Positions 23,115-34,714 of a stretch of 64,000 nt of DNA are shown here, piece after piece (the first letter of the stretch is position 1; each line of letters starts with the position of its first letter). Under the pieces are notes generated by a model. It did no database searches, was not told the DNA's origin, and was given only the letters and a program-made list of their open reading frames with translations. Both the position numbers and the translations under genes were made by a program. Origin of the DNA: Gammaproteobacteria bacterium (GTDB lineage: Bacteria; Pseudomonadota; Gammaproteobacteria; Ga0077554; Ga007554); the NCBI GenBank assembly GCA_040183005.1, contig JAMPIW010000007.1, positions 372,001 through 436,000 on the forward strand. Reading direction: 5' to 3'.

Positions 23115-24934
<1,820 letters not shown>

Positions 24935-25002
24935 CTATATTGGGGCGTAATTGTAACAAATAAACCCCAGCCCGGAGAGGTGTTTCGTGTGTTGGAAATT
25001 GG

Positions 25003-25030
25003 CGGGGTGAGGCTAATTTCGCCAGCCCCG
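25003..25030 (-). terminator. Possible terminator of the SUMF1 operon
   Basis: CGGGG...GGC pairs with GCC..CCCCG over an imperfect stem with an internal bulge, just past the stop of the last SUMF1-like gene. Moderate stem, weak T-tract. The rest of 24887-25047 shows nothing recognisable. Confidence 0.35.
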
Positions 25031-25047
25031 AAAATGTAATTTCCGTG

Positions 25048-25950
25048 TTACTGTGGGGTTCTGGCGAGACGGAAGCCGATGATGTTGCTCCGGTTTACGG
25101 CTGTGGCGTTGGTGCGATTTTGTACGCGCACGTTTTTGGCGTCGCCCCTCCAGGAGCCGCCGCGCAGCACGCGCCCGGAACTTGCGCAGAGGCTGGTCCA
25201 GGCGCTGCCGTCAGCGGGTGCGCCGCTATAATTATCGTGATAGCAGTCTTCCATCCACTCCCACACGTTGCCGCTCATGTCGTGAAGACCAAAGGCGTTG
25301 GCATTTTTGCTGCCCACGGGTTGCTGGTGTTTGCCGCTGTTTGCGTTGAACCATGCAACGGCGTTCACGTCGCGGCTGCCGCAATAAGGGTGGTTGCCAC
25401 CCGCGTGGCAGGCGTATTCCCATTCGGCTTCGGTAGGTAAGCGATAGACGCCATGGTCAGTTGCCGCTTTGCTCTTGTTTAGCCATTCGATAAAGTTTTT
25501 GGCCTCGTTCCATGAAACATCAACCACGGGCGCAGTGTCGCCATGGGCGTTGTATTTCATGAACTCGTCGGTGACCAGCTCGGTGCGGCCAGTGGCGATG
25601 ATGAAGCGTTTGAACTGACCAAGAGTGACTTCGGTTTTGCTCATCTGGAAACCCGGTATGCTGACGCGATGCTGCGGGCCTTCGTTGATCAATGCGTCCA
25701 AGTCGACTGCGGAGCAGCCGGCTGGAGGTGTCTGGGAGAGCTTCTTGCCTCCCCCTCCCGGTCTGGTTGCCGCTTGGCACGAGCCCATCTGGAAGCTGCC
25801 AGTGGGTATGTCGGTGAACTTTAGGTCGATGAAGCTGCTGAATTCGCCGGCATGTGCAAAGCTGGCGACCAGACTCAAGCAGAGTGTGGCAACAATATTG
25901 CCAAGACGCGTTGGCAAGTGACGCGGCAGACGATGGTGCGCTCGGGGCAT
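25048..25950 (-). CDS. Exported SUMF1/FGE-family protein (copy A)
   Basis: About 300 residues from ATG 25950, which opens a clear signal peptide ('LCLSLVASFAHAGEF'); the frame extends 20 residues upstream without a signal. The formylglycine-generating-enzyme-like fold is shown by 'TDIPTGSFQMGSC', 'SKTEVTLGQFKRFI', 'PVVDVSWNEAKNFIEWLN', 'YRLPTEAEWEYACHAGG', 'GLHDMSGNVWEWMEDCYH' and 'GRVLRGGSWRG'. The paired Cys of aerobic FGE, expected after the 'GGSW' segment, are absent ('VRVQNRTNATAVNRSNIIG'), so sulfatase activation is unlikely. A binding or maturation role in the periplasm is more probable. Last gene of a four-gene operon with a paralog just upstream. Confidence 0.88.
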   Translation of the reverse strand: MPRAHHRLPRHLPTRLGNIVATLCLSLVASFAHAGEFSSFIDLKFTDIPTGSFQMGSCQAATRPGGGGKKLSQTPPAGCSAVDLDALINEGPQHRVSIPGFQMSKTEVTLGQFKRFIIATGRTELVTDEFMKYNAHGDTAPVVDVSWNEAKNFIEWLNKSKAATDHGVYRLPTEAEWEYACHAGGNHPYCGSRDVNAVAWFNANSGKHQQPVGSKNANAFGLHDMSGNVWEWMEDCYHDNYSGAPADGSAWTSLCASSGRVLRGGSWRGDAKNVRVQNRTNATAVNRSNIIGFRLARTPQ

Positions 25951-25964
25951 GCTGGTTCCTAAAG

Positions 25965-26043
25965 TTAAACCTAAAAACGGAAGTTGGCCGCTTCTTTGGA
26001 TGGTTGGCAATATGTTTTGAATGTGTTTTAACGACCCGCCTGT
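25965..26043. repeat. Inverted-repeat element B, partial copy B3
   Basis: Begins TTAAACCTAAAAACGG and continues with a close match to the left half of copy B1 (shared 'GTTGGCCGCTTC' and 'GGCAATATGTTTT' type segments), but no right-hand inverted end follows. It fills the gap between the two SUMF1-like genes and abuts the stop codon of the upstream one. Confidence 0.65.
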
Positions 26044-27141
26044 TTATGGTAAATCCCTGACAACACGAAACCCATTGCCGTAGTACCAGTTTCCGGGCGA
26101 GGCGGCGAGGCGGTAAGTTGCGCGCGCGAAGTCTGAAGTGAACTTCCAGGAGCCACCACGAAGAACCCGCGCGGTGGTGGTGTCACGCTTCCAGTCTGAG
26201 CCGTGGCGGGTGCGCATGATGGCGTCGTACTCCTGTTGTTCCCTGCTTAAATCCGTGTTGTTGACGCGCACAATATTCGCGGAATTATTGTGTTCCTGCT
26301 TGCCTTGGTTGAGTTCCGGAGCGCCGTGCGAAGCATTCGCGCTGTTCTCCGTCCAGGGACGGCCATCAGCCGGTGCGCCACGGTAACTATCATGGTAGGC
26401 ATCCTCTACCCATTGCCACACGTTGCCGCTCATGTCGTAGAGTCCCCAGGCGTTGGGGGTCTTGCGTCCAACATTTTGCTGATGCCGGCCATCGCCCTTG
26501 GGGACATCGCCATCGTGCCATGCGACTTCATTCACGTTATTGCTGCCGCAATAAGCATGGTTGCCGCCCGCACGACAGGCATATTCCCACTCTGCTTCGG
26601 AAGGTAACCGGTACGTGCCACGGTCATTCGCCGGTTTGTGCTTGTTGAGCCATTCGATGAAATCTTTGGCCTCTTGCCAGGAAACCTGCACTACTGGCGC
26701 GTCATCGCCGAAAGCGTTGTATCTCATAAAGTCGTCGTTGATAAGATTCCATCCCGACGATCCTTTAGTGCCTCCCGAGGCACTGACATAGTGTTTGAAC
26801 TGGCCGAGGGTGATCGGGGTTTTGCCCATCTGAAAAGCGGATATGCTTACGGTATGCTGTGGGGTTTCGTTGTCGTTTACGTTGGTATTGTTCTCGGGGC
26901 AGTCGGCCGAGAGCGGTGCTTGGCCGAGAAAAACGCGGATTTTGTTTTCCTTCTGCATCTCGGATGTTATTTTGCATGAGCCCATCTGGAAATGGCCGCT
27001 GGGTATGTCAACGAACTTCAGGCCTGCGAAATTGGTGAATTCCCCAGCCTGTGCTAGCCCGGCTACCAGGCTCAGCGCGGCCAAGAAGGATCTGGCCAGT
27101 GTGGGTGTGCGGGGCGGTGAGCGATGTAGCGCTTGAAGCAT
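26044..27141 (-). CDS. Exported SUMF1/FGE-family protein (copy B)
   Basis: 365 residues with a signal peptide ('SFLAALSLVAGLAQAGEF'). It shares with copy A the order and wording of the fold: 'VDIPSGHFQMGSC', 'GKTPITLGQFKHYV', 'PVVQVSWQEAKDFIEWLN', 'YRLPSEAEWEYACRAGGN', 'GLYDMSGNVWQWVEDAYH' and 'ARVLRGGSWKF'. It differs by an insertion of about 60 polar residues before 'RVLRGGSW' ('NQGKQEHNNSANIVRVNN'). The FGE catalytic cysteines are missing here too ('FARATYRLAASPGNWYYG'). The two paralogs look like an old tandem duplication. The role is unknown; the periplasm is the likely location. Confidence 0.88.
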   Translation of the reverse strand: MLQALHRSPPRTPTLARSFLAALSLVAGLAQAGEFTNFAGLKFVDIPSGHFQMGSCKITSEMQKENKIRVFLGQAPLSADCPENNTNVNDNETPQHTVSISAFQMGKTPITLGQFKHYVSASGGTKGSSGWNLINDDFMRYNAFGDDAPVVQVSWQEAKDFIEWLNKHKPANDRGTYRLPSEAEWEYACRAGGNHAYCGSNNVNEVAWHDGDVPKGDGRHQQNVGRKTPNAWGLYDMSGNVWQWVEDAYHDSYRGAPADGRPWTENSANASHGAPELNQGKQEHNNSANIVRVNNTDLSREQQEYDAIMRTRHGSDWKRDTTTARVLRGGSWKFTSDFARATYRLAASPGNWYYGNGFRVVRDLP

Positions 27142-27200
27142 GACTAGATCCTCTTGATATTAAAAATTCAAATTTTCGCAACCCGTCGTGTGCCGCCTGG

Positions 27201-27614
27201 TTAGGAAAACCAGCGTAAAAAAGCCGCTGCGGTCAGCGCTGTGGCTCCCATCCCAGTCAGGGCATGCCATGCGCGATGACGGCTTTTCTCGCTCCACTGC
27301 TGTGCGCCGCGCAAATAAAGTGCCGCAAGCACAAACCCGGAGACAGCACAGAGCACCTTGATAACCAGCGCCCCAATAGCTACCGCGTGCAAGTCGGGGA
27401 ATTCACCGTAAAAATAGAAGCTGACGGTGCCAAAAATGACACCGCTGGCGACTTGGGCGCCCCACGCGATTAACACCAGCCACGCCATGCGTTTTTTGAG
27501 CTGGAGTTGGTCCGGGTTGGATTTCAGGGCAATAAAAGAGCCGCCCACCACTGCGGCGGCTCCGAAGTTATGTATGGCCTGGGTTAATGCATAGGATAGG
27601 TTCTCGAGCTGCAT
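27201..27614 (-). CDS. Small four-helix inner-membrane protein, unknown
   Basis: 137 residues with four predicted membrane helices, roughly 15-32, 43-66, 75-98 and 116-134. Histidines sit near the ends of helices 1 and 3 ('TQAIHNFGAAAVVGG', 'FPDLHAVAIGALVIKV'), which could bind a metal or haem, but no family is recognised. It starts 3 nt after the stop of the periplasmic protein gene and is followed by the two SUMF1-like genes, so all four are probably co-transcribed. Hypothetical. Confidence 0.75.
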   Translation of the reverse strand: MQLENLSYALTQAIHNFGAAAVVGGSFIALKSNPDQLQLKKRMAWLVLIAWGAQVASGVIFGTVSFYFYGEFPDLHAVAIGALVIKVLCAVSGFVLAALYLRGAQQWSEKSRHRAWHALTGMGATALTAAAFLRWFS

Positions 27615-27617
27615 GCG

Positions 27618-27968
27618 CTAATTCGCTGTGACTTTGATGCAGCTCTCTTGGCCGATGGACGCATGGCCTTTGTTGACCACCTTTATGCACAGCGTGTGAG
27701 TGCCGACGGGCAGGGGGTCAAGACTGAAACTGCTCTTTAGCTTGCGCAAAATCCCGGCCTCTTTGCCATTGACGTAAATGTGCGAATGGTCGCCACCGAC
27801 ATTGGGCGTAATGCTATAAACGACGTTTACCGGTTCGCCGACTTTGACCTTGCCCCCATCAGCGGGGGATGTGATTTTCAGGTTGGCGTCGGCCAGTACG
27901 CTGGAACCCCACAGCACTACCCCAAGCGCGAGCGTGGCACGCGAAGTGCGGATAAGTTTTCTGTGCAT
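27618..27968 (-). CDS. Small periplasmic Ig-like protein, unknown
   Basis: 116 residues: signal peptide ('ATLALGVVLWGSSVLADA') followed by one compact beta domain ('LKITSPADGGKVKVGEPVNV', 'GGDHSHIYVNGKEAGIL', 'LPVGTHTLCIKVVNKGHA') with two cysteines that could form a disulfide. It resembles Ig-like domains that carry a 'G.H.L......G' strand and bind metals or sugars. First gene of the SUMF1 operon. No precise family recognised. Confidence 0.75.
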   Translation of the reverse strand: MHRKLIRTSRATLALGVVLWGSSVLADANLKITSPADGGKVKVGEPVNVVYSITPNVGGDHSHIYVNGKEAGILRKLKSSFSLDPLPVGTHTLCIKVVNKGHASIGQESCIKVTAN

Positions 27969-28169
27969 TTTGTGAACGTCTCCGTTATGTTGGGCTGCAA
28001 AATTCAGAGGTAAAAAACCCCACTAAATCGGTAGAATATTTGTATGTTTTTAGCATACTGACGCGCGGTTGTAAAGATGAGTTTTGCGCATCGGTTTGAA
28101 GCCCCTAACAAAATGAAAAAAATACATTTACAATTTGGTTGCACCTTAAAATTATCCGGAGGAGTAAAG

Positions 28170-28607
28170 ATGCCGCGCCAATTGGTGGATGATGCGCTGT
28201 GGTCTGCCATAGAACCCCTAATACCGCCACCCAAGCAGCGGCGTAAGCGGTATCCTGGCCGCAAACCACTGGATGATCGCCAGATGTTGACCGGTATTCT
28301 GTTTGTGCTGCTGTCGGGCATTCCATGGGAAATGCTGCCGCAGGAAATGGGGTGTGGGTCGGGTATGACCTGCTGGCGACGGCTGCGCGCCTGGCAAAAG
28401 GCTGGCGTGTGGGACCAGCTGCGCGAGGTGCTCCAGGTCAAGCTACGCGAGGCGGGTAAGATCGATTTCGCGCGCGCCATCGCTGACCCTTCCGCCACAA
28501 GTGCCGCGAACAGGGGGGCTGGCCGTGACCGGCTGATCGCCGTAAAACCAACAGCAAATACCAGACCTTCACGGACGCGCAAGACATCTCGCCCGACGCC
28601 ATTGTGA
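28170..28607 (+). pseudogene. IS5-family transposase remnant
   Basis: Begins well: ATG 28170 after a GGAGGAG site, 'MPRQLVDDALWSAIEPLIPP', 'RRKRYPGRKPLDDRQMLTGI', 'LSGIPWEMLPQEMG' and 'WRRLRAWQKAGVWDQL', the N-terminal half of an IS5-group (IS427/IS1031-like) transposase. After 'DPSATSAANRGA' the frame degenerates, the DDE core is missing and only scraps of later sequence can be guessed up to about 28740. No clear inverted ends. Inactive remnant. Confidence 0.8.
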
Positions 28608-28747
28608 TGGAAACCAGCCGCAATGACATCGCATAACGGCTGTCACTGGTCGAGGGTATCCCTCCTCGATTCACGGCTACGACGCCGATCCGATTGATTT
28701 GCTGGCAATTTTCAAGGCGATATGGAGAGTCATTTTGTTAGCGACTC

Positions 28748-28876: not shown

Positions 28877-28931
28877 TGAACCCGAAACGTCCTTCAAGGC
28901 ATCTCGGTTTGATAGCTGTTAGAATGTGCCG

Positions 28932-30386
28932 ATGTTCTTTGCCAACGACAGAAAGTATTTTTTTCGCCCCCTCAACAGCAAATACCGTGAGCAGGCCGTG
29001 GAGTGCTTGCGGCAGTTATACGCCTGCTTCTATAGCTCGATGGCGGACTATAGCCGCAGCTATAATCGTGAACAGGTGATTGAGGTTTTCCAGGAGGCGA
29101 TTACCCGCACGCCGCTATTGGATGGTGATACCGATGATGAGTTTGCAGCGCCGGCGCGCGGTGAGCGGGATCTTGCCAATTGGGTGTTGAATCTCTTGAT
29201 CGAGTATGGCTGGCTGGAGCGGCTGGCCGATGAGGCAACCTTGCAGAGCACCTATGCGTTTACGCGCTTCGGGCGTCTGTTTACCCAGCCGATGGTGGAG
29301 GCAGGGGGTGGCCGCTTCAGAACCCGTCACCGCAATACCCGCAACACCCGCAATGCGCTGCATTCCTTTGTCGAGAAGGGGGAAGTGTATGACCTGTTGG
29401 ACGCCTTCGAATACTCCGAGCGCATCATAAGTGATTTTAGCGATGTAATTGCCGAGCTGGACGAGCGCAAACGCGCCCTGGTGCAGGCGGTGGAGGCTCA
29501 GCAGGTAGTTCAGCGCGCCAGCGACGAGTTCTTTGATTTCATGGAGAAGCGCTTCATGCCGGATCTCTCTATCCGGCTGTCGGCCGACAGCGTGGAAAAG
29601 TATCGCGATGAGATTCAGGCGTTGCTCAACAAGGCACGCCGCAAGCAGAAAGAGTTCAAGGCTGGCGCAGAGCGTGAGCTGCGCAAGATTGCCCCGGAAT
29701 TGCAGGGCGACGATTCCAGGCAATCGCTCTATCTTATGATACTCAACGGCATCGAAAGCCGCATGCACAATGCCAGCGAGGTGATGTTGCCTGCGCTGCG
29801 CCATGCGCTGAACAGTTTCACGCGCCGTGCGGACATTATTATCCGCCAATTGAGTTATTCGGGGGGCGGGCATCCCAGCCGCTTGCTGGCGATTTGTCAG
29901 GAATTGGCGGCGCAGGATGAGCTCGGGCAGGCTGCGCGGCTCGCCGCCGCCGGTCGCGTCATGGCGGCGCTGAATGTTGCCGCCGTGGTCGATCCGGACA
30001 GTTTGCGGATCAATGCGGTGCGGAGCCGCCGCGAGGTGAATTCGGCGGTGGAAGAACATGGCGTGATCGACAAGGCCGCCCGCCGTGAATTGTTGATTCA
30101 ACAGGCTCTGGAATTGGCGTTTGCCGTTAACAACAAAGAAATGCGCGATTATGTCGTCGCGGCCCTCAATAAAGGGCATCGCATTCGCAGCCAGCATTTG
30201 CCGGTGGAAAATGCCAAGGGATTGTTGATGAACGCGCACGCGATTGAAGTGGGGTCCGCCGGACAGAATTCCAGCGAATTCGCTTTCCGTGTCGAACCGA
30301 CCGGGCAACGATTACCCACCGATTATTTCGTGCTGACCGATGAATTCATTATCGAGCTGATAGAGGCGGATAGCCATGCTGAGTGA
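28932..30386 (+). CDS. mksF: Condensin subunit MksF / Wadjet JetA-like
   Basis: About 484 residues (ATG 28932; a GTG two codons earlier is also possible, and neither has a strong ribosome site). Starts '[20 protein letters not shown]' and is built of winged-helix and helical segments with a coiled-coil-like middle ('[20 protein letters not shown]', '[20 protein letters not shown]'). Gene order, lengths (about 485/228/1220) and 11-bp overlaps with the next gene identify it as the kleisin-like F subunit of an Mks (MukBEF-like) SMC complex; Wadjet systems call the homolog JetA. MksBEF complexes condense chromosomes, while Wadjet restricts plasmids. A jetD gene is not present here. Confidence 0.85.
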
Positions 30387-31062
30387 CTATATTGAAAAGG
30401 CGCTGGAATCCGAGCGCATCGATCTGGACGAGTTCCGGGAACTCCTGGTTCGCCTGATGAATTACGGCGTGTTGTGCCGCGCCGAAAGCCAGGTCGAACA
30501 ACAACTCTATGATCGTTATTTGCGCGTTGCCGGTCTGGTTGAAGACTATCTCGGTCTGATCGGGATTCGTATCTTTCACGACCGGCGTTTCGAGTATGTG
30601 CGTTTATATCCGCCCGGCAGTCAGGTGCCCGGCATGGAGGGTGTCGAGGACACCGCCTTCGGCGGCAGCTTGCGTAGCCGTTTGACGCAAAACGAAGTGG
30701 CGCTGATCCTGGTGCTGCGCGTTCAATACGACAAGGCGCTGCGCGAAGGGCAGATAGATGAAAATGGAGGCGTCGCGGAATCCATGGAGTCGTTGGCGAT
30801 TGCCATGAGGAATTTGTTGGGGCGCGCGCTCCCGGACAAGCTGACCGAACGCAAGCGCCTGTTTCAGCGACTGCGGCAGTTGCGGCTTATTGATTACCGG
30901 AGCGAGGAAGATATCGACAGCGGCGAGGCATGGTTGAAGATACACCCGATGATCGTCAACTTTGTTAGCGATGAGGCCTTGCAGGCCATGGAGCAGGCCG
31001 GAAATATGCCCGCCGGAGCACAGACAATGACAGCAGCGATGGACGTGGACGATGTTTCTTAA
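30376..31062 (+). CDS. mksE: Condensin subunit MksE / Wadjet JetB-like (DUF4194)
   Basis: 228 residues, winged-helix kleisin-associated subunit (DUF4194 family): '[20 protein letters not shown]', '[20 protein letters not shown]', '[17 protein letters not shown]' and '[20 protein letters not shown]'. It overlaps mksF by 11 bp and mksB by 11 bp, so the three are surely translated as a unit. It would bind the MksF dimer and regulate the MksB ATPase. Confidence 0.88.
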
Positions 31063-34000
31063 GCGCTTTGTTTTTATCAACTGGGGGAATGTGCCCCATA
31101 TTGAATTCGAATTTGGCCCAGTCAACCTGTTTTCCGGTGGCAATGGCTCTGGCAAGACGACGGCGGCCGACGCAATCCAAACAATTATGACGGCGGCGCA
31201 TGAGAATCTGTTCCAATATAATCCTGGTCAGGATGAAACCACGCAGCGCGGTCGGGGCGGCAAGCGGGTGCGTACACCGGCTTCGTATGTGTTGGGTTGC
31301 GACGATGGCAGTTATGCGCGGCTGGAGCCGACTGATGGCTATCTGGCGGCGGTGTTTCATCCTACGCACGGAGAGACGGCAGACCCTTTTACCGCGATCA
31401 TCGGCGTGCGCGCCTGGCTGGATTTGTCCGCCAACAATGCCGTGGCGCGCCAGGATGAGGCGATCTATCTGATTTTGCCGGGTGAGCAATTGTCCTTGAG
31501 TCAATTGGTACGTCAGGATAAGGGGGGTAAGCATGTCGTGCCGCTGGACAAGATTCAGAACGCCTTGATCGGTGATTTCGGCAAGCGGGCGGTGGAGAAG
31601 TACGACCTTAAAAAAGCCTATTTGCGGCGCTTGTACGGTGCGCTGCGCGGACGCAGTGATGCGGTAACCGAAACCGAGGCGGTCGCTGCCGCCAAGGCCT
31701 TTTCGCGTTTCATGGCCTATAAGCCAGTGCAGGGCATCGACCGCTTCGTGGCGGAAGAGATCCTGGAGAAAAAGGATCTGGGTGAAGCGGTTCGCTCGGT
31801 GTCCAGCCAGCTTAAAACCATTCATGCCATGGAGCGTGATGCTGCCTCATTGGTCGATTCCATCCGCATCCTCGATGAAGCCACGCGTCACAGTCAGTGC
31901 TATATCGAACAATGGGTCGAACTCAATACGCTGGAGTGCACGCTGGCGCAGCATGAGTATGTATTGCGCCAACGTGAATACCTTGCCGCCAAGAAGGGAC
32001 AGGATGAGTATCGCGCAGCTATCGCAGCCAACGAGAGCCAGCTTCGGTTGCTGGGGCAGCGCCGCCGCCAGGTCCACGACGAGCTGGTGAGCCTCGAAGC
32101 GCAGCGCATGGGCATCGCCGCACTGCAAGACAAAGACCGCCTGGAGCGCCAACGCGAAGAGCAGGACAGGCGGCTCGTCGAGCAGGCAAAAAACCTGCTG
32201 GTGCAGGACAGTCAGTTGCAGTCTAACCTAGCCCATAGCCAGGCCATCATTGCCAGTGTGTCCAAGGTCGATGTGGTGGATGAGTTGCCGCACGTGGCTG
32301 ATCTCGGCACCTTGGCATTAGGCAAGCAAGTGGCCGATCACGTGAGACGTGGCGACATCGACTTCCGTACTCTCATGCAGCGCGAGTTCACCGGTGATTT
32401 GGCTGCATTGGAAAATCATCTCGATGCGGCGCGCAAGGCCCAGCAATTGAGCAATCAATGGGTGGCGCATTGGCATGATGCGGATGTTCATGGTGCAGGC
32501 GAAAGTTTGCGGGAGCAGGTGTCCAAGTTGGCGCACCGGCGCGAGAGCCGCTATGAAATCCTTGATGGCCAGCGTCGTCAGAAGGCGCAGGAAATCGAGC
32601 GTCTGCGGGTCCATCAGGTCATCTATCCAACGCATGTGGATAAGGCGCTGGCGGCGATCCGCCAGCAATGTCCACAGGCCGAGCCACGGGTGCTCTGCGA
32701 TCACGTTGAGGTGAAGGATGCGCGCTGGCAGTCGGCCATAGAGGGTTATCTTGGTGGCGCACGATTTTCGATTATTGTTGCGCCGCAGTGGGAGGCAGAG
32801 GCGATTCGCATCGTGCGCCGCATGCCGGGGCGCGACAATAAAGCGCGTGTCATCCAGGGTGAAAAAGCGCGCCAGGATGTCGAAAAAATCGCACTGCACG
32901 CCGATTCGATTATTCATGTGCTTGATTTTACCCATGCCACCGCGCGCGATTTTCTCGTTGCCAGCTATGGAACGGTGATGCGGGTGGAGTCCACGGAACA
33001 ATTGCGCCACACCCGGCGCGGCCTGACAGTCGACGGCATGGGCGCCGGAAACTACAGCATGTGGCGCTGCGATGTGCCGGACAGCGAACTGGTCTTCGGT
33101 GTTTCGGCGCGCGAGCGCGCACTCCGCGCGAAGGAGGCAGAGCTGGTACATATCCTCGGCGAGTGGCAGAGTGCCAACGACAGGATGCAGTCCGCAGCCG
33201 CACTATTGAAGGCGGTAGATGGTTTAAAACACCTGGAGTACGCAGATACCATCGCAGCCATGCTCGAAACTCATCGTGACTTGCGGAAGCTGGAGAATCT
33301 GTTGCGTCAGCTCGATCTTGGCGAATACCGCGATCTGGAAAAAAAGCTGGAAGAGGGCAGGGGGGAAGAGCAGTCCTTGCGCGCCCAGGAGGCGGAATTC
33401 AACAAACGTAGCGGGGAGTTCGAGGAGAAGTTGCGCGAGTCCACCGAGCGTTGCAAAAAGCTCAACGACTTGCAGGATAAAAATCGCGCGTATTCCGAAA
33501 GCCGCGAGGAGATGCTGCGTGCTATCGCTGTGGTATGGAGCGGTTTCAATGTCGATGAGCGCCTCACCGCAGCGGATCAGGAGGCGCAAGACCTTAACCG
33601 GGAGGTTGCGCTCAATGTGAAGCAGGATATCGAAAGCCGGCTCCATACCAGCGAACGCAGGATGAGCGATGCCGTCGACGCGCACAACCAGCGTTGCCGC
33701 CCTGGCGATGCTGTTGTCTATATTGGCTTCGAGGGAAAATACGATGAAAACCTGTTCAAGGCGATTTGCGGTTTGCAACGGGAAATTGATCGCGTTTTTA
33801 ATATCCTCAAGAACAATATTCTGGTGGAAAAACACCAACAGCTTGCCCAACTCAAGGAAAGTTTCAACAACGCTTTTGTTTCCCACCTGTGCCATGCCAT
33901 TTATCAGGCCATCAGCACAGGCAAGCGGCAGATCGACTTACTCAACAAGGAACTTGAACATCACCACTTCGGCAGCGACCGGGAATCTTTTCGCTTCGGC

Positions 34001-34714
34001 TACGATTGGGTGCCGGAATTCAGGGACTATGCCCGCTTCTTTGATGAGGTCATCAAGTCGCCGGGGTTGGGCGATGATACTTCCCTGTTCGATGCTGAGC
34101 TTTCCGATAAGTCACGCAAGGTCCGCGACGAGTTGATGGCGATGCTGCTCGATGAAGACGAGCACAAAGCACTGCGCGAGCTGGAGCGTATTGCGGATTA
34201 TCGCAATTACCGCCGTTATGAAATCTACAAGGAAGTGGCGGGCAAGCCGCCGATTGCCTTGAGCGAATACGGAACCGGCAGCGGCGGGCAATTGGAAACC
34301 CCGGCCTATATCATCCGCGCCGCCGCCGTGACATCCGCGTTTCGTTTTGCGGAGGGTGCCAACCACTTGCGCATGGTGCTGGTGGATGAGGCCTTTTCCA
34401 AGATGGATGAAGCGCGATCACGCGAAGTGATCGGTTACTTGACCGACACCTTGGGCTTGCAGCTCATCTTTATCATGCCCACCAGCAAATGCGGCCCTTA
34501 CATGGACTTGATCAGCAACGAATTCGTGTTTGCCAAATGCCCAAGCGACAGGCCGCGCGGCCAGCTCAACACGCGTGTGATCGTCGACCGCAAACAGTGC
34601 AATCAAGAAAAAATCAAAGAGTTGTGGGCGCAGCATCGCCGCACTGTATACCATCAGGCCGACCTGGATTTCATGGAGGATGTTCTGGCAGTCTCCAAGT
34701 CCTATAGACCATGA
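31052..34714 (+). CDS. mksB: SMC-like ATPase MksB / Wadjet JetC-like
   Basis: 1220-residue SMC-type ATPase. Walker A '[18 protein letters not shown]' has its P-loop at residues 29-37. Long coiled coils follow ('[20 protein letters not shown]', '[19 protein letters not shown]') with a central hinge region near '[20 protein letters not shown]'. The ABC signature is 'GTGSGGQ' at 1074-1080, and Walker B is '[18 protein letters not shown]' with D1112-E1113. A D-loop and '[18 protein letters not shown]' end the head. All ATPase motifs are intact. It is last in the mksF-mksE-mksB operon; the next gene is convergent and is a pilin, so the nuclease gene mksG/jetD is missing at the usual place. Confidence 0.92.

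Follow-up and report, generated by a model that had tools for sequence, protein, structure and literature searches.

An Ig-like periplasmic protein and a four-helix membrane protein form a recurring two-gene envelope module that a tandem pair of FGE-fold proteins joins in one clade

What brings together, in one short cluster, the genes for two small proteins, one exported and Ig-like and the other in the membrane, and for two exported proteins of the FGE (SUMF1) fold? The cluster occupies positions 25048 to 27968, on the minus strand, of a 64,000-nucleotide stretch of contig JAMPIW010000007.1 from a Gammaproteobacteria bacterium (GenBank assembly GCA_040183005.1), which we call the window. A preliminary description of the window had picked out these four genes as a combination matching no known pathway and had suggested a periplasmic maturation or metal-handling system. 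We verified all four open reading frames (ORFs), which run in the order IG (the Ig-like protein), MP (the membrane protein), FGE-2 and FGE-1, with gaps of 3 bases between IG and MP, 59 between MP and FGE-2 and 93 between FGE-2 and FGE-1 (counted from the ATG of FGE-1 at 25950). The four genes are a real, recurring set that we could match to no described system and whose parts have known or DUF folds. The core of the set is a two-gene envelope module, IG-MP, which the tandem exported FGE-fold pair joins in one clade. No known pathway was found that fits the combination; literature searches on DUF4399, DUF6130 and the SUMF1/EgtB/PvdO family yielded no description of the gene set, and a paper on copCD genes beside thiocyanate dehydrogenase, followed as a lead, uses no FGE terms in its accessible part.

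The evidence for a two-gene core comes from the distribution of the genes. We searched for MP in three overlapping samples, comprising 95 relatives of the source genome (11 matched), 369 Gammaproteobacteria genomes (19 matched) and 398 genomes of the phylum (4 matched). Once weak matches were set aside (G033 and G329 in the class sample, G061 among the relatives), 23 genomes were found to carry an intact MP (G000-G006, G026, G028, G042, G119, G131, G175, G177, G184, G290, G313, G332, G338, G342, G373, G691 and G717), and the stretches fetched around every MP were scanned with IG, MP and FGE profiles. In 21 of the 23, MP is immediately preceded by IG. In the 369-genome sample, some IG match is present at an E value of 0.001 in 41 genomes and reaches 1e-30 in 18; these 18 include every one of the 17 genomes in which MP matches strongly, the remaining one, G211, having IG only. 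The counts exclude the 23 genomes whose IG matches are weaker than 1e-30 and one interrupted IG-MP copy on G332:C1. This second copy of G332 (L092:7251-8785, plus strand) appears to be split by a transposase-like ORF between its two pieces and adjoins genes that we take, from their sequences, to be sigma-factor-like and anti-sigma-like. Solitary, lipoprotein-like variants of IG were also observed (L052:9058-9462, L186:5473-5862 and L185:5926-6351; genomes G028, G175 and G150, the G150 match being weaker), adjoining what look from sequence to be exonuclease-III-like and peptidase-like genes. An MP scan of one genome collection returned five contigs, all labelled as metagenome-assembled Gammaproteobacteria, and no plasmid matched MP at an E value of 0.01.

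The FGE pair follows MP in 8 of the 23 MP genomes (G000-G006 and G184). The order IG-MP-FGE-FGE is kept in all seven genomes of the family that have MP and in G184, a member of another family. Because the same four-gene order is found in eight genomes of two families, the set recurs beyond chance. The flanks of the unit vary within the family, being mnmA-like in G000, G001 and G003 and made up of other genes in G002, G004 and G006. In G290 the contig stops 29 bases past MP, so that the presence of FGE genes there cannot be judged, and in the fetched stretches of the remaining 14 genomes no FGE gene was detected beside MP. We counted 13 FGE-less IG-MP loci, from 12 genomes and a second IG-MP pair of G003. 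With a profile built from ten FGE-1 and FGE-2 proteins we screened a chosen set of 44 genomes, of which 17 have MP and 27 were picked without it; 33 of the 44 match at an E value of 0.001. Among the matches listed, values of 1e-117 or lower come only from G000 and G184, followed by G010 (6.3e-73; no MP was found there in the search of relatives) and G717 (1.7e-64, where the match is not adjacent to MP); G131 and G177 carry IG-MP and have no match to this profile at 0.001. Maximum-likelihood trees unite the FGE-bearing units with G290, at a support of 100/100 for IG and of 91/95, short of the tool's star mark, for MP; many of the other forks have weak support, and there are several long branches. 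Second IG copies fall inside this group in the IG tree. The simplest interpretation is that the FGE pair was gained once. Recurrent co-occurrence had been named as the outcome that would support a system, and the recurrence of the unit in eight genomes bears this out; the core of the system needs to be narrowed to IG-MP in view of the 13 FGE-less loci and of G131 and G177.

We then considered what each protein offers. IG (27618..27968, minus strand) encodes a 116-residue exported protein whose AlphaFold model is a beta sandwich, with block means of 95 to 98 pLDDT over residues 31 to 116, in line with its initial characterization as a small Ig-like periplasmic protein. Its best Pfam match, Big_7, scores just below the cut-off (23.6 vs 24.1 bits). 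Three histidines, H61, H63 and H102, are invariant across 23 aligned rows. A sequence search against solved structures gave no convincing relative of IG; in a fold search, Ig/Fn3 modules of carbohydrate enzymes rank first (3pdg, Z 11.6, root-mean-square deviation 2.3, 86 aligned), and CopC stands at Foldseek rank 10 for the model (E 1.2e-3). Profile comparison points to DUF4399 (PF14347). Against a profile of eight DUF4399 proteins, IG matches at 96.9% over its full length and 96.1% in mature form; the hhalign score on mature regions is 52, with 60 column-permuted controls at 17.1 or below; and H61, H63 and H102 align with H67, H69 and H119 of DUF4399, which are invariant in its eight rows. 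Six of 23 IG members match DUF4399 at E values up to 1 (best, 1.8e-4). The window IG itself is not listed for DUF4399 at an E value of 1 (Pfam cut-off, 28 bits), and a family search of the source genome found no DUF4399 protein. As judged from these profiles, IG is a distant relative of DUF4399, a family of no known function.

MP (27201..27614, minus strand) encodes 137 residues with four membrane helices, an invariant H15-N-F-G-A motif, an invariant K86 and a near-invariant C89. Its AlphaFold model is a four-helix bundle (mean pLDDT 92.6), which upholds the original picture of a small His-containing four-helix membrane protein; H15 is invariant in 21 rows and H76 is not. Lysines plus arginines average 3.0 in loop 1 and 3.7 in loop 3 vs 0.4 in loop 2, a distribution that places both termini, by prediction, on the periplasmic side. 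Mean column identity is higher in the outer, predicted periplasmic halves of the helices than in the inner halves (0.75 vs 0.60; permutation 0.0001, with neighbouring columns not independent), and the conserved residues Q12, H15, N16, Q54, S57, K86 and C89 lie 9 to 15 residues in from the outer helix ends. Nothing scored above a family cut-off in the Pfam/NCBIfam search, no relative was found among solved structures by sequence, and Foldseek gave no match at an E value of 0.001. A second fold search returned generic four-helix bundles, designed proteins and bd-oxidase helices with Z up to 13.1, as is common for helical bundles. Assignment of MP as a HemJ-like protein was not supported.

FGE-1 (25048..25950, minus strand; 300 residues) and FGE-2 (26044..27141, minus strand; 365 residues) are the two tandem exported FGE-fold proteins originally reported, and both lie far over the PF03781 cut-off of 23.3 bits (1.2e-50 and 2.1e-44; 173 and 152.5 bits). 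For FGE-1, the ATG at 25950, preceded by AGGA, is more likely as the start than the alternative TTG at 26010, judging by sequence. In FGE-2 an insert precedes the final RGGSW motif. Both share the PF03781 fold with true FGE (SUMF1/FGE) but differ from it in having no cysteine after RGGSW, a lack common to 16 of 16 aligned FGE-1 and FGE-2 proteins; the region after this motif is presumably where the copper-binding catalytic cysteine pair of true FGE sits. Two cysteines of FGE-1 are absent from FGE-2, and four more are common to 15 or 16 of the 16 rows. The pair had been called non-catalytic, which is right only in the sense of true FGE; it may carry out other chemistry. The best solved match of FGE-1 is PvdO (1.5e-30), likewise an exported FGE-fold protein without the FGE cysteines, followed by TvpA (2y3c); PorK/GldK are also among its solved relatives. 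Orthology of the pair with PvdO was rejected, since the scores against the NCBIfam equivalog NF051459 (124.5 and 113.4 bits) are far under its cut-off of 500, and the tandem arrangement with IG and MP as neighbours is a further difference. According to the accessible part of a review, PvdO is required for the last oxidation of pyoverdine, and the purified protein has no detectable cofactor and an unknown electron path (PMC6206403).

Other FGE-fold proteins of the source genome provide context for the pair. Of nine PF03781 proteins encoded by the genome, six form three tandem pairs. In each of the two other pairs (L095:8169-9263, minus strand; L093:6693-7853, plus strand), the first protein has two CxxCH haem-c motifs and is followed by a second FGE-fold protein; orthologs of these pairs also occur in L045, L048 and L049. 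In G004, G006 and G007, a second IG copy adjoins the ortholog of one diheme pair, divergently oriented and 170 to 222 bases apart, and no IG was found beside the source genome's own copy of that pair. Roughly estimated, chance alone would put a duplicated IG next to an FGE locus (about six of these in about 2,700 genes) with a probability of about 0.5%, and the three cases possibly represent a single event. A further FGE gene of the source genome (L097:7095-7952, minus strand), whose product is, of the paralogs in this genome, the nearest to FGE-1 (about 36% identical), is immediately followed by four genes of ccm type (by Pfam, CcmE, CcmB, a cytochrome c assembly protein and an ABC ATPase), and another (L096:7277-8341, minus strand) is clustered with genes for a COX1-family protein and a cytochrome c. 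Together with the diheme pairs, these neighbours show that FGE-fold proteins in this lineage are encoded close to genes of periplasmic redox functions. Pfam was also run on the neighbours at 7 of the 13 FGE-less IG-MP loci, picked by eye and with no background rate; at four of the seven, a redox or metal gene (DUF411, cupredoxin-like, MauG or cytochrome b561) lies within two genes.

Based on the observed linkage, co-occurrence and conservation pattern, we tentatively propose, as possible rather than probable, that a metal-binding (or redox) relay runs in the periplasm from IG to MP and that the FGE pair became a partner later. Metal handling is the leading idea because the three invariant IG histidines align with invariant histidines of DUF4399. 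IG would bind a transition metal ion, copper being the first guess, in the periplasm through these histidines and would dock onto the periplasmic face of MP. MP may then accept or hold the ion, or its electrons, at the polar site formed by its conserved residues Q12 to C89 named above, and the FGE-fold pair could draw on the ion or the redox partner for the oxidation or maturation of a periplasmic substrate, much as the last oxidation of pyoverdine depends on PvdO. CopC and CopD are thought to act as periplasmic metal donor and membrane acceptor; we infer that IG-MP might work in a like manner without being a member of CopCD.

Several observations weigh against this relay. IG lacks the fourth invariant histidine of DUF4399, H91. 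The FGE genes are dispensable to IG-MP, as the FGE-less loci and G131 and G177 demonstrate, and the redox or metal neighbours of the four FGE-less loci, picked by eye, have no gene in common and lend unsystematic support. MP stands without an adjacent IG in G028 and G175, the IG copy of each sitting elsewhere in lipoprotein-like form; scattered genes in relatives had been named as the outcome that would speak against a system, and for IG and MP this was seen only in these two genomes of one genus. In MP helix 1 taken alone, outer and inner halves do not differ (0.73 vs 0.72). The IG-CopC profile match falls from 90.8% on full length to 50.4% on mature regions (score 27; permuted maxima 18.7 and 4.7%), and the MP-CopD score is at control level (19.42 vs a permuted maximum of 19.44). 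Lastly, we scanned 24800-28700 for promoter-like and terminator-like sites, which are consensus matches only. The three promoter-like sites (1.8 expected) are all on the plus strand, with none on the minus strand of this interval. Terminator-like sites number 14 (5.4 expected), those on the minus strand comprising three in MP, a single site in FGE-1, another upstream of IG, and an overlapping pair downstream of FGE-1 (which includes 24964..24981). One of the three in MP (27225..27238) marks its 3' end, before FGE-2, and with the 59- and 93-base gaps it weakens the case for a single transcript.

The same gaps and terminator-like site, and the abundance of FGE genes in the genome, would suit chance neighbours without a common function, an explanation made very improbable by the identical order in eight genomes of two families with differing flanks. 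IG-MP might instead be a divergent CopCD copper uptake pair beyond profile recognition, given the shared gene order (first an Ig-like periplasmic protein, then a membrane protein), the helix-1 histidines paired in the best local MP-CopD alignment and the full-length IG-CopC match. The weakening of that match without the signal peptide, which leaves IG as a plain CopC unsupported, and the control-level score, on which we rejected MP as CopD, render this improbable; moreover, the source genome's PF05425 (CopD) proteins lie elsewhere, none of them being MP, and only 1 of 21 MP members matches PF05425, at an E value of 0.76. DUF4399 and CopC profiles themselves match at 63% in full and 57% in mature form. 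IG also has no N-terminal histidine after its signal peptide, a residue that we take to be among the CopC ligands. As for the FGE genes, FGE-1 might be the variable target of a diversity-generating retroelement, with IG-MP as bystanders, since FGE-fold proteins can be such targets and TvpA is the second solved match of FGE-1. We give this hardly any credence: the C-terminal part of FGE-1 is conserved from one species to another, and the genome's sole RVT_1 match, a 622-residue reverse transcriptase on another contig (L101:499-2367, minus strand), is best matched by the defence type UG19 (PADLOC, 5.4e-159), so that FGE-1 as such a target is not supported, no search for template repeats having been made.

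Two further explanations are unlikely to a lesser degree. The FGE pair could be a PvdO-like periplasmic oxidase, MP a haem- or quinone-binding electron acceptor and IG a docking domain, with no metal delivered. The diheme motifs beside second IG copies, the ccm and COX1-type neighbours of FGE genes, the MauG or cytochrome b561 genes beside two IG-MP loci and the missing cofactor and electron path of PvdO are consistent with such a redox relay; it is nonetheless doubtful, as only one histidine of MP is invariant and MP matches no cytochrome b family, G131 and G177 carry IG-MP without matching the FGE profile, and the three invariant IG histidines would go unexplained. Equally doubtful is a ligand-binding or structural envelope complex free of metal and redox chemistry, in which the Ig-like and C-type-lectin-like FGE folds bind sugar or peptide and MP serves as the anchor. 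The carbohydrate-enzyme modules that lead the IG fold search, the Big_7 match and the presence of PorK/GldK and TvpA among FGE-1 relatives fit this idea, but one would not expect an invariant HxH...H in a plain Ig spacer, and the conserved polar residues of MP sit inside its helices.

The metal-binding relay from IG to MP can be extended, more speculatively and with little confidence, to a wider scheme. IG-MP would be a hitherto undescribed system of the envelope, with a patchy distribution among Gammaproteobacteria and at least one carrier genome from outside the class. In it, a tri-histidine IG would charge MP with metal or electrons. One clade would have recruited FGE-fold oxidases, the diheme-c/FGE proteins of the same lineage would serve a similar chain, and FGE-fold pairs would be a general periplasmic redox device. 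The two short, strongly co-occurring genes of IG-MP link a DUF4399-like domain to a membrane partner and so provide a handle on DUF4399. The FGE pair, the diheme-c/FGE proteins and the FGE gene beside ccm bear on the role and the electron destination of FGE-fold proteins that, like PvdO, are without the FGE cysteines.

Beyond the unit itself, JetA, JetB and JetC genes lie on its upstream side (28926-34714, plus strand; PADLOC). No JetD was found directly after JetABC, where the next ORFs of at least 150 residues are on the opposite strand. An IS4/5-type transposase ORF (DUF4096; 28077-28607, plus strand) sits between IG and JetA, and transposase ORFs resembling it also adjoin IG in G002 and G003. 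The gene downstream of the unit is, by our recognition of its sequence, presumably mnmA-like.

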